Below are positions 42,999 through 48,267 of a stretch of 64,000 bases of DNA, piece by piece (the first letter of the stretch is position 1; each line of letters begins with the position of its first letter). This stretch comes from Thermus hydrothermalis. Its GTDB lineage: Bacteria; Deinococcota; Deinococci; Deinococcales; Thermaceae. The position numbers and the translations under genes are program-made. The notes beneath the pieces are model-generated. The model saw only the letters and a program-made list of their open reading frames with translations. It did not search any database and had not been told where the DNA came from. The stretch is from NCBI RefSeq assembly GCF_022760925.1, contig NZ_JAKTNT010000003.1, positions 62,001-126,000 on the forward strand, read 5' to 3'.

Positions 42999-44813
<1,815 letters not shown>

Positions 44814-44858
44814 GTTTACTCCTTCTGCGAGGGCAGCGTGCCCTCGTTTCCTAGCTTC

Positions 44859-45037
44859 GCCCTGCCCCCCGGTTGTCCCCCCCTCGCGGGGCTGGCTTTC
44901 CCGGAAGGCTTTGCTCAGGCGGGCGGGGCGGGCACACCCCGGGCGGCATCCGCGGATTTCTCGATCTTTCCCGGCCTCGCCGGTAATCCCCTCATGGGGT
45001 CCGCCACCTCGTGAGGTCCTTTGGGACCCCCTGCGCT
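44859..45037 (-). ncRNA. glmS self-cleaving ribozyme, with extra hairpins
   Basis: Reading the minus strand: cleavage A|GCGC (A 45037, G1 45036), P1 (GGGGTCC-CAAA-GGACCTC), ACGAGG, P2 (GGCGG 45005-45001 with CCGCC 44946-44942), ATCGAGAAATCCGCGGATG (44965-44947) core, and a P3/P4 region with a GNRA-capped CCCC/GGGG hairpin closing at 44859. These match the glmS ribozyme order and spacing, upstream of glmS. Between P2 and ATCGA lie 35 bases (45000-44966) with two hairpins where other ribozymes have about three. An alternative fold pairs GGGGTCC with GGACCCC and uses a second GGCGAGG; both keep the catalytic core. Confidence 0.85.
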
Positions 45038-45088
45038 TCCCGCCTTCCCAAGACCCGTTTCACGCCAGCCTTCCACCTCCTCGCCGGG

Positions 45089-45094
45089 AGTATA
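45089..45094 (-). promoter_or_regulatory. glmS: -10 element for the glmS ribozyme-glmS transcript
   Basis: TATACT on the minus strand; start would fall near 45082, about 45 bases before the ribozyme cleavage site. No clear -35. It lies 24 bases from the divergent slpA -35. Confidence 0.55.
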
Positions 45095-45117
45095 GCAAAA
45101 GCTTAAGGTGCGGGGGC

Positions 45118-45148: not shown

Positions 45149-45282
45149 CCTGCGGATGCAGGGAAAAAGAGGCCTTTGTGCCGGGTAAGCCCTGCATCTT
45201 GGGGAAAGGCGGTTCGGAGAGGAAACGCGGCAACTCGCCCGTCCCGTCTTCCCCAAAATCCCTGAAGGGGGTGTACGGGAAT
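45149..45282 (+). promoter_or_regulatory. slpA: structured slpA mRNA leader with competing hairpins
   Basis: Local hairpin CCTGC-GGAT-GCAGG (45149-45162) conflicts with a long-range perfect pairing of GATGCAGGG (45155-45163) with CCCTGCATC (45190-45198). A second perfect pairing, TTGGGGAA (45199-45206) with TTCCCCAA (45249-45256), closes a large loop before the start codon. No other gene is seen in 44814-45282. Confidence 0.6.
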
Positions 45283-48267
45283 ATGAAGAAGAGGCTAGTG
45301 GTACTTCTGGCAGGGCTCTTGACCGTGCTCTCCATGGGCTTCGGTCTGGCCCAGTTCTCCGATGTGCCCGCTGGGCACTGGGCCAAGGAGGCCGTGGAGA
45401 GCCTGGCGGCCAAGGGCATCATCGTGGGCTTCCCCGACGGTACCTACCGGGGGAACGAGACCCTGACCCGCTACCAGGCGGCTCTCCTCATCTACCGCCT
45501 CCTGCAGCAGATTGAGGAGGAGCTGAAGGCCAAGGGCGAATCCCCCACCATGGAGGCCATGTCCTCCGAGGACCTGGAGGCCCTGAAGAACGCCGTGCAG
45601 GAGCTCGCTGCTGAGCTCGCCGCCTTGGGTGTGCGGGTTTCCGCCCTGGAGGATAGCGCCGCCACCAAGGAGGACATCGCCCGCCTCGAGGCCCTGATTG
45701 AGGAGCTGAAGGCCCAGCCGGCCCCCGAGCCCGGCATGGACGCCGCCGCCCTCCAGGACCTCGCCGACCGGGTGGAGGCTGCCTCCATCGCCGCCGACAC
45801 CGCCTTGGCCCAGGCCCAGCAGCTTGCCGAGCAGCTGGACGCCTTGGCCCAGGACGTGGAGGGCGTGAAGGGCGACCTCTCCGCCCTCGGCACCCAGGTG
45901 GAGGCCAACGCCCAGGCCATCCAGGCCCTGAACGAGCTCGCCGTCCTCCTCAACCAGGACGTGCTGGCCCTGCAGGACCGGGTGACCGCCCTGGAAAAGT
46001 TGGTCTCCGGCGGCGCTGAGCTTCCCGACCTGGAGCAGTTCGCCTCCAAGGAGGACGTGGCCGCCGTCCAGGAGTTCGCCGCCGCCCTCCGCTCTGACCT
46101 GGTGGGGCTTTCCGAGAAGGTGGGGGCCCTCACCGAGCGGGTTTCCGGCCTCGAGGGGCAACTCAAAGAACTCTCCAAGGTGCAGTACTCCATCTCCGGC
46201 AGCCTCACCGCCACCTACGGTTACACGCAGGCCACGGGGCAGGACTTTGACGTGGACCGCCTCTTCCCGGGCAACAAGCTGAGCTCGGGTGTGGGAGAGG
46301 GTGACAACACCAATGGCCGTCGGCGCCCTGCGGTCCGCAGGGGCGACTTCAACAACCAAGACTTCACCGACCTGGGTGGCACCCTCAACTTCTCCGTGAA
46401 GGGCCAGGGGGTAGAGGCCACGGTGGAAACGGGCTTCTCCCTCACGCCCTTCAATGTGAACGTGGATAAGGCCCAGGTGAAGACCAGCGTGGATGGCCAG
46501 CCCCTTACCGTTACCCTGCAGGATGGGGACCACACTTTCCGCTTCAACCCCTACCTCTTTAGCAACGAGCGGGATGACGGCACGGCGGTACCTCGCTACG
46601 GGCTCACGGCTGTCTTGGAGGCTAACAAGCTTCCCTTGAACCCCACCTTGACCTTGGTGGTGGGTGCGGGGGCTACCTCTGAGCCTCGCTTGGCGCAAGG
46701 GAACAATGTAGTGTATGGGGCCTATGGTCCCGTTTTGGACGGCAACTACTTCGGTGCCCGGGTTCAGCTGGATGCCTTTGGGCTGAAGCCCGCCTTCTCC
46801 GTGGCCGGGCAGTGGAACGGTGGCAACAACCGCACCGCTTTCGGTGTGGACGTGAGCGGGAAGCTTTTGGACCTGGTGAGCCTCGAGGGTGCCTTCGTCC
46901 GTTCCTACCAGGCCGTGATACCCTTTGACGTGAACACGGCTACCTACGACGACGCTGCTTACATCAAGGGTGGCCTAGAGGCGAGCCTGGGGGGCATCGG
47001 GCTTAACCTCTCCGCCAACTACCGGAAGATTGACCCCGGCTTTGAAAACGGTGTGGCGGGCATGTCCGCCGACCACGCCTACTACTACTTTGGCGTGAAC
47101 CCCGGTTCTGATGGGAAGGGTGGGGCTCCCTTTGACGCCAACAACCGGGGCTTTGGGGTGGAAGGGTCGGTGAAGCTCCCCTTCCTGGGTGGGCTGGAGG
47201 TCCGGGGCTTTTTTGACCGCTCCGAAGCGGTGGACGGTACGGTGTCCCAACTTGCTTATCTGCAGCGGGCTTTGGCGGCCCAGGCCTGGAGCGTGGGGAC
47301 TACCCTAAACCTCTTCTCGGGCCTCCGCTTGGAGGGTTGGTTCAGCGATGTGCAGGTGGGGCCGAATCTCAGCAGCCTCAACCGCTACCCTGGCGTGTTG
47401 GGAGACCAGGCGGGGCTCTTTGAGGGCACCTACAACTTCTACCTCTACGGTAGCCGCGACGAGCGCTGGTCCAGTGGCTTTGGCGTCCAGCTGGTCCACG
47501 ATGGCAAGGCGAAGGATGCCCTGCTTTCGGGTCTGGACGTGACCGCCGGCTTCCGCCGCTACTACCACCCGGCGACCAACGCTTACGATATGCAGGACAT
47601 CCTGGTGGCGGGGCAGTACAGCCTCAAGCTTGGTCCCATCAGCGCCACGCCCTTCGCCCGTTATCGCATCTTTGCTCAGCAGGGCACCAATAGCACCTAC
47701 CAGAACTACTCGGATAACCAGTCACTTCCCCCCGGTACCCCTGCTACGGTTAGTGTCTACGATTACACCACCTACAAGATCGGGGCTACGGTAAGCACCG
47801 ATCCCTTGGCAATTCCCTTGAAGCCCTCCTTGGCCGGAGCCGCGGCGTACAGGGTGGTGGACATTACGGAGCCCGCTGGCGTCAATGATGCCAAGGAGAC
47901 CTTCTGGCGCCTCCAGCTGAGCCTGAACGAATTCCTCTTCCAGGGGAGCAGGTTCAGCGTGGGTTACGCCTGGTACCGGGGTGAGAATGTGGTAACTCCG
48001 GATGTGCCCTCCACGGTTCCGGCTCGGGGGTACACCAGCAACCTCACCGCCTTTGATGACCGGGTCTTCGCCTACCCGGGCCAGGTGCAGTACCCCTGGA
48101 ACCTGACGGCTTTGGGCACTGCCACGGGTGTGGTCCGGGGCTGGTACGCGGAGTGGACCTTCTCCGGCCTGGAGGTGGCCGCGGGCATCTTTGACCTGCT
48201 GGACGCTAGCGACACCGTCCAGTCCACCGGGGCGGGCTTCAAGGTAAGCTACACCGTGAAGTTCTAA
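45283..48267 (+). CDS. slpA: S-layer protein SlpA
   Basis: 994 residues. Signal peptide (RLVVLLAGLLTVLSMGFGLA), one SLH domain (FSDVPAGHWAKEAVESLAAK ... FPDGTYRGNETLTRYQAA, about 24-80) that binds secondary wall polymer, a long coiled coil (about 85-300), then a beta-barrel-like region ending in Phe (SYTVKF), as in outer-membrane proteins. Codons are less biased to C/G third base (GGT, GCT, GTT), typical of very high expression. ATG 45283 chosen by the signal peptide; a longer in-frame start would lie in the leader. T. thermophilus SlpA is slightly shorter. Confidence 0.93.
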   Translation: MKKRLVVLLAGLLTVLSMGFGLAQFSDVPAGHWAKEAVESLAAKGIIVGFPDGTYRGNETLTRYQAALLIYRLLQQIEEELKAKGESPTMEAMSSEDLEALKNAVQELAAELAALGVRVSALEDSAATKEDIARLEALIEELKAQPAPEPGMDAAALQDLADRVEAASIAADTALAQAQQLAEQLDALAQDVEGVKGDLSALGTQVEANAQAIQALNELAVLLNQDVLALQDRVTALEKLVSGGAELPDLEQFASKEDVAAVQEFAAALRSDLVGLSEKVGALTERVSGLEGQLKELSKVQYSISGSLTATYGYTQATGQDFDVDRLFPGNKLSSGVGEGDNTNGRRRPAVRRGDFNNQDFTDLGGTLNFSVKGQGVEATVETGFSLTPFNVNVDKAQVKTSVDGQPLTVTLQDGDHTFRFNPYLFSNERDDGTAVPRYGLTAVLEANKLPLNPTLTLVVGAGATSEPRLAQGNNVVYGAYGPVLDGNYFGARVQLDAFGLKPAFSVAGQWNGGNNRTAFGVDVSGKLLDLVSLEGAFVRSYQAVIPFDVNTATYDDAAYIKGGLEASLGGIGLNLSANYRKIDPGFENGVAGMSADHAYYYFGVNPGSDGKGGAPFDANNRGFGVEGSVKLPFLGGLEVRGFFDRSEAVDGTVSQLAYLQRALAAQAWSVGTTLNLFSGLRLEGWFSDVQVGPNLSSLNRYPGVLGDQAGLFEGTYNFYLYGSRDERWSSGFGVQLVHDGKAKDALLSGLDVTAGFRRYYHPATNAYDMQDILVAGQYSLKLGPISATPFARYRIFAQQGTNSTYQNYSDNQSLPPGTPATVSVYDYTTYKIGATVSTDPLAIPLKPSLAGAAAYRVVDITEPAGVNDAKETFWRLQLSLNEFLFQGSRFSVGYAWYRGENVVTPDVPSTVPARGYTSNLTAFDDRVFAYPGQVQYPWNLTALGTATGVVRGWYAEWTFSGLEVAAGIFDLLDASDTVQSTGAGFKVSYTVKF

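Follow-up and report, generated by a model that had tools for sequence, protein, structure and literature searches.

Comparative analysis of the Thermus glmS leader points to a glmS ribozyme subtype with a helix across the cleavage site and a two-hairpin insertion

Is the leader RNA of glmS in Thermus hydrothermalis a glmS ribozyme, and how do the parts of it that depart from the known ribozymes fit the family? We addressed this question within a window comprising the whole 64,000-nt stretch of DNA analyzed and by comparison with glmS leaders of other bacteria. The initial annotation had described an ordered glmS ribozyme core in the glmS leader, and every motif that it listed is indeed present at its place on the minus strand: the cleavage site A|GCGC at 45037/45036, ACGAGG at 45007-45012, GATCGA at 44961-44966, GCGGATG at 44947-44953, and the P2 strands GGCGG and CCGCC. 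The 5' part of the minus-strand leader reads AAGGCGGGA A|GCGC AGGGGGTCCCAAAGGACCTC ACGAGG T GGCGG A CCCCATGAGGGG A TTA CCGGCGAGGCCGG, and after CCGGCGAGGCCGG the leader continues with GAAA GATCGA GAAATCC GCGGATG CCGCC CGGGGTGTGCCCGCCCCG CCCGCCT. Its RNA ends about 45 nt ahead of the glmS ATG, likewise in all Thermus. The gene, the putative promoter, and the elements shared with known glmS ribozymes are as follows, with pair counts taken from the Thermales alignment described below.

42999-44813, minus strand: glmS gene, 604 aa, glutamine-fructose-6-phosphate aminotransferase; the open reading frame starts MCGIVGYVG
44857-45046, minus strand: whole conserved RNA from the P0 5' strand to the P3.1 3' strand, kept in 27 of 27 Thermus
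45089-45097, minus strand: TGCTATACT, putative extended -10 promoter element of the leader
45036-45037, minus strand: predicted cleavage site A(-1)|G(1), within AGCGC at 45033-45037
45033-45035, minus strand: P2.2 5' strand C2-G3-C4, which pairs with GCG at 44951-44953; invariant
45013-45030, minus strand: P1 hairpin, 99.6% paired, with double changes at 5 of 5 counted pairs
45007-45012, minus strand: ACGAGG, whose CGA forms P2.1 with UCG at 44962-44964
45001-45005, minus strand: P2 5' strand GGCGG, 100% paired, with double changes at 2 pairs
44942-44946, minus strand: P2 3' strand CCGCC
44961-44966, minus strand: GAUCGA, P2.1 3' strand and ligand-pocket segment; CGA invariant
44947-44953, minus strand: GCGGAUG, P2.2 3' strand and active-site segment; 7 of 7 columns invariant
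44924-44941, minus strand: P3 hairpin, whose loop GCCC pairs with the RNA 3' end (P3.1)
44863-44909, minus strand: P4 domain with internal loop GGGAAAGCC / GGACAACC and GCGA tetraloop, present in the minimum free energy (MFE) fold
44858-44862, minus strand: P3.1 3' strand GGGCG, which covaries with the P3 loop

Folded to its MFE structure, the window RNA forms P0, P1, P2, P2a, P2b, P3, and P4, at an energy that is ordinary against shuffled sequences (z -1.2). AGCGC at the cleavage site is invariant in the 45 sequences of the Thermales alignment, and the A-rich internal loop of P4 is conserved across Thermales. TATACT is conserved in those Thermus leaders whose sequence extended far enough upstream. 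In the same window, positions 45178-48267 hold the divergently transcribed gene of an S-layer-homology-domain protein (MKKRLVVLLAGLL...), likely an S-layer or outer-membrane protein, and its promoter and that of glmS share a short intergenic stretch.

By protein search, each of the 27 Thermus genomes has glmS, and the complete ones have a single ortholog apiece (87-97% identity). Because all 27 carry the same leader RNA upstream of the gene, its occurrence is not a matter of chance. The comparison of Thermus glmS leaders that the initial annotation had proposed thus bore it out, with the core conserved in 27 of 27 genomes. Within the RNA, mean column conservation in Thermus was 0.89, with 117 of 189 positions invariant; it was 0.61 over the preceding 51 nt and 0.41 in the stretch that leads from the RNA to the start codon. 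glmS was present in 103 of 111 Deinococcota genomes, and 68 further leaders were fetched and parsed. For covariation analysis, we used a gap-free alignment of 106 columns with 59 loci (58 from Thermales, and L086) in 45 distinct rows, cut into helix segments anchored on motifs. The end of P3 was set by P3 pairing and not by P0 pairing, so that P0 was not favored by construction, while the split between P2a and P2b was chosen by pairing and these two helices were therefore mildly favored. Over all helices, 95.5% of cells were paired and double changes occurred at 19 of 31 pairs, giving a covariation score of 0.339 compared with 0.125 for shuffled and 0.04-0.11 for slid alignments. Compensatory changes were present in P1, P2, P2a, P2b, P3, P2.1, and P3.1. 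In particular, P3.1 covaries freely between the P3 loop and the 3' strand (GAACCC/GGGUUC, GGGCCC/GGGCCC, CGACCC/GGGUCG, GAGCCC/GGGCUC, and GAAUCC/GGAUUC).

The P2.1/P2.2 double pseudoknot with ACGAGG, UCGA, and GCGGAUG had 99.6% of its cells paired and one double-changed pair, and P2.1 pairing was retained in 44 of the 45 rows. In two leaders of the Thermaceae genus g3 (L065 and L072), ACGAGG is altered to ACGCGG and AUCGA to AGCGA. This double change turns a P2.1 A-U pair into C-G and is compensatory, inside the catalytic core. The third P2.1 pair as drawn from crystal structures is A40-U53 in B. subtilis numbering. The other pairs of P2.1 are C38-G55 and G39-C54 in the same numbering (PMC11602151). 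We replaced the P2.1 hairpin as Rfam draws it (UCGA/UCGg) with the CGA/UCG pseudoknot (PMC11602151), which covaries. Among the leaders collected, L053 of genome G071 has short GTGAAGCGG-like repeats around its ribozyme, which lies unusually far from glmS (about 600-700 nt).

Does the RNA belong to the family as Rfam delimits it? The covariance-model check that the initial annotation had suggested fails by itself: at permissive settings, RF00234 matched the window at 44940-44979 with 10.2 bits (E 6.8), below the curated cut-off of 37 bits, which is a detection threshold and not a biochemical feature. Rfam at gathering thresholds returned only four tRNAs from the window and no glmS ribozyme. None of the 27 Thermus genomes reached E 1 with RF00234, and the four of 111 Deinococcota genomes over its cut-off include no Thermus. 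Such a low score would fit a glmS ribozyme that has decayed or lost catalysis and persists as a structural leader or as a site for protein binding, but the letters of the catalytic core and the P2.1, P2.2, and P3.1 pairings are kept with compensatory changes over about 58 Thermales leaders, as they would not be in a relic, and we regard this explanation as very improbable.

For our own covariance model we used 24 sequences of Thermales, the window sequence being one row. This model scored the window at 110 bits, its single match in the T. hydrothermalis genome, and gave one match per genome with the exception of G044 (two contigs). It matched 63 of 111 Deinococcota genomes, compared with the 4 of 111 that pass the RF00234 cut-off, and detected both Deinococcota outside its rows that RF00234 also finds (G027, G028, G030, and G033) and Chloroflexota glmS leaders. 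Among Firmicutes, it matched 23 of 31 canonical glmS loci, the best with E 2.3e-5, and the alignments shown had the P0 pairs flagged as broken. Conversely, insertion-bearing Chloroflexota pass the RF00234 cut-off, L161 with 42.1 bits and L242 with 56.0 bits. Because a Thermales-only model matches Firmicutes loci and RF00234 passes insertion-bearing Chloroflexota, these comparisons make membership of the window RNA in the glmS ribozyme family well supported despite its failing Rfam score. The window RNA has the position in the 5' leader of glmS, A|GCGC, the P2.1/P2.2 double pseudoknot, P3.1, and the A-rich loop of P4, all hallmarks of glmS ribozymes; it does not have the short J2/2.1 of the Firmicutes type, nor is it free of a helix 5' of the cleavage site. 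P0 and the insertion of about 35 nt set a subtype apart and are no argument against family membership. A scan of viral contigs for canonical glmS ribozyme cores found none.

The structured insertion that the initial annotation had noticed between P2 and ATCGA was confirmed as 34-35 bases with two hairpins, at a place where 'TTT' or something close to it precedes RUCGA in the 25 Firmicutes parsed. It consists of the following elements.

44988-44999, minus strand: inserted hairpin P2a, CCCCATGAGGGG, 97% paired, with double changes at 3 of 4 pairs
44984-44986, minus strand: linker UUA, which is UAA in most Thermales
44971-44983, minus strand: inserted hairpin P2b, CCGGCGAGGCCGG, 99% paired, with double changes at 3 of 4 pairs
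44967-44970, minus strand: linker GAAA, with AAA invariant in the Thermales alignment

Jointly, P2a and P2b were 98.1% paired in the Thermales alignment, with double changes at 6 of 8 pairs and 71 cells changed on both sides compared with 25 in shuffles. The layout in Thermales is P2a - A - UAA/UUA - P2b - GAAA, in which stems and linkers are conserved and loops vary: the P2a loop runs to tens of nucleotides in L054 and L075, and the P2b loop exceeds 100 nt in the Meiothermus-like L060 and L069 with its stem and linkers still conserved. The 5'-UAA and GAA-3' linkers at the base of P2b may resemble the UAA/GAN internal-loop motif. The insertion also occurs in Chloroflexota.

The initial annotation had further seen within the insertion a second copy of the GACGAGG-like element, and had offered a two-state ribozyme in which this copy and an alternative P1 (GGGGUCC/GGACCCC) would switch the RNA between active and inactive folds. 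GGCGAGG does exist in this species, but it is only a variant of the P2b stem-loop, for which other sequences such as CCGGGAAACCGG and CCGGCTTGGGCCGG also occur, so that the element is not conserved. The alternative-P1 pairs exist in the window, and in the nearest-neighbor model the forced two-state alternative is only 1-4 kcal/mol worse. All seven pairs, however, are found in just 5 of 27 Thermus, the alternative P1, when forced, is less stable by 3.6 kcal/mol at 37 °C and by 1.8 kcal/mol at 70 °C, and the helices that compete with the two-state fold covary, both P2a and the local P1 hairpin. Because the comparative data and the energies both oppose it, we rejected the two-state fold, to which we give next to no credence.

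The initial annotation overlooked a further helix, P0, in which the nucleotides just ahead of the cleavage site pair with those that follow P3.

45039-45045, minus strand: P0 5' strand AGGCGGG, positions -9 to -3 from the cleavage site, which pairs with 44917-44923
44917-44923, minus strand: P0 3' strand CCCGCCU, directly 3' of P3

RNAalifold predicted P0 unaided, and all seven P0 pairs are present in the MFE fold of the window RNA. In the Thermales alignment, a register-fixed count gave double changes at 5 of 6 pairs, and 30 cells were changed on both sides compared with 10.8 in shuffled and 1-7 in slid alignments; such counts of changed cells are not counts of independent events, and P0 shows at least five separate double changes within Deinococcota. 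The P0 sequence is near-invariant within Thermus, where covariation support comes from relatives. Changes with pairing kept are A-4:U in Meiothermus-like genomes, A-3:U in L056, U-7:A in f4 and L086, A-7:U in L065 and L072, and G-6:C in L060, L063, L071, and L073. Many Meiothermus-like genomes have a P0 of 3-4 good pairs with a predicted duplex energy near zero at 37 °C, and P0 is mismatched in L081.

The P0 helices of Chloroflexota are as long as 9 bp, and their sequences are unrelated (GGGGGAAGA/UCUUCCCCU, GGAAAGG/CCUUUCC, GAAGGAU/AUCCUUC, and GGGAAAGGA/UCCUUUCCC). Because the scan that gave these helices took the best complement, it was repeated with matched permutations, which gave 0 of 1000 for Chloroflexota, 17 of 1000 for Thermales (with a coarse score), and 974 of 1000 for Firmicutes. 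P0 of Trueperaceae likewise begins at -3 (UCGCGAG/CUCGCGA, UUGGG/CCCAA, and GCGAG/CUCGC). P0-like pairing above chance was not found in 25 canonical Firmicutes sequences. Since P0 covaries in Deinococcota and Chloroflexota and is present in Trueperaceae, while the Firmicutes sequences show no pairing above chance, it is best read as a lineage feature of Deinococcota and Chloroflexota that is absent from the 25 canonical Firmicutes. Two other ideas about P0 were discarded. A universal P0, at which the Rfam consensus hinted with three A-U pairs in canonical ribozymes, is opposed by the same 25 Firmicutes sequences. A strand swap between P0 and P2, both of which contain GGCGG in Thermus, is not conserved, as P0 of Meiothermus-like genomes is GCGAG-like and their P2 stays GGCGG.

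Do the extra helices only keep the core folded at 65-75 °C? The initial annotation had considered a thermostabilized variant, and the Thermus helices are in fact very G+C-rich, with nearest-neighbor estimates for the isolated Thermus P0 of -13 kcal/mol at 37 °C and still about -7.2 kcal/mol at 70 °C. Heat is not needed as the cause, however, since P0 and the same insertion are also seen in Chloroflexota from groundwater and aquifer sediment among the matches listed. (The pattern scan of genome-contig DNA for the insertion gave mostly chance matches among those listed, which were filtered by the presence of glmS.) Base composition may reflect thermal tuning, yet P0, P2a, and P2b are lineage features, and thermostabilization as their sole purpose is unlikely.

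We consider it very likely that the leader is a glmS ribozyme subtype common to Deinococcota and Chloroflexota, activated by glucosamine-6-phosphate (GlcN6P) and with a periphery that clamps the substrate strand. Known members of the family use GlcN6P as a catalytic cofactor, and in B. subtilis it is RNase J1 that degrades the product with the 5'-OH end (PMC11602151, PMC3997798). To the helices, covariation, distribution, and homology observed here, the known family would add by analogy that GlcN6P binds the preformed double-pseudoknot core in Thermus and helps to cut between 45037 and 45036. The cut would leave a downstream mRNA with a 5'-OH end, whose degradation would lower GlmS in a feedback loop. 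The roles of P0 and P2a/P2b are inferred without precedent, and product retention is likewise an inference. P0 spans the cut, with two unpaired bases (-2 and -1) between the helix and G1; it would close the P1-P2-P3 domain and hold the substrate strand in place and, once the cut is made, the 5' piece. P2a and P2b with the UAA and GAAA linkers would form a junction between P2 and P2.1, probably bracing P2.1. The safest role to propose for P0 is that of a structural clamp on the substrate strand.

In a bolder reading, P0 would make the ribozyme of both phyla a switch that keeps its product and can be reversed, rather than a one-way cut: the retained 5' piece could be religated, the helix would delay attack of RNase J on the 5'-OH end until P0 melts, GlcN6P would set the equilibrium, and P0 length would set a threshold for each species. 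In Thermales and Trueperaceae, 2 nt separate P0 from the cleavage site, and because the helix spans the cut the product would stay base-paired, for Thermus with a predicted energy of -7.2 kcal/mol at 70 °C, but the weak P0 of many Meiothermus-like genomes would not hold the product. We regard the switch as a doubtful, though conceivable, addition to the clamp.

glmS ribozymes of Deinococcota and Chloroflexota are already known to Rfam, as part of the members pass. P0 and the P2a/P2b helices appear to be what is undescribed: the open literature that we searched held no description of either, the search having been made outside the distribution review of McCown et al. 2012, 'Mechanism and distribution of glmS ribozymes', reportedly the main one on glmS, which may mention Deinococcota or Chloroflexota. 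The glmS ribozyme is a model for RNA that uses a metabolite as catalyst. The known structures are, to our knowledge, of the Firmicutes type, from crystal constructs without the strand 5' of the cut. The standard Rfam model has largely overlooked a subtype that carries a conserved helix on this strand and a structured junction next to the ligand pocket; once updated, the model would allow glmS control to be annotated in Deinococcota and Chloroflexota. RNAs of the Thermus type offer natural, very stable material for structural work, and the fate of the cleaved 5' piece becomes directly testable.

Among related systems, the glmS leaders of Trueperaceae (Deinococcota; for example L093, L101, and L119) resemble that of Thermus in a P2a/P2b-like insertion and a P0 with a 2-nt spacer, and share the cleavage site AGCGCAAG and ACGAGG. 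Unlike Thermus, they have GCGGGC in place of GCGGAUG, a very short P3, and an extra hairpin before CUGCGGG; these glmS ribozyme-like leaders may have an altered ligand pocket. Divergent Trueperaceae leaders are L092, L093, L095, L096, L099-L108, L110, L116, and L118-L120.

Chloroflexota glmS ribozymes (for example L242, L161, L306, and L309) have, like Thermus, P0 (7-9 bp) and the insertion, in the form P2a - NUAA - P2b - GAAAAUCGA, and several members pass the RF00234 cut-off. They differ from Thermus in longer purine-rich P0 strands, and some have A|GCGG rather than A|GCGC. A|GCGG was observed in L136, L230, L246, L250, L256, L257, and L304, which also have UCAGCGGAUG for UCGGCGGAUG downstream. 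Five Chloroflexota genomes (G121, G123, G127, G128, and G130) have two glmS ribozyme matches each, compared with one in most Firmicutes searched.

With the RF00234 types of Bacillus subtilis, B. anthracis, and Thermoanaerobacter tengcongensis, whose canonical architecture we took from PMC11602151, the Thermus RNA shares the gene context, the cleavage site, the P1-P2-P2.1-P2.2 core, P3/P3.1, and P4 with its A-rich internal loop, and in T. hydrothermalis also the GNRA loop. Compared with these types, it adds P0 across the cleavage site and, between P2 and P2.1, the hairpins P2a and P2b, about 35 nt where Firmicutes have approximately 3.
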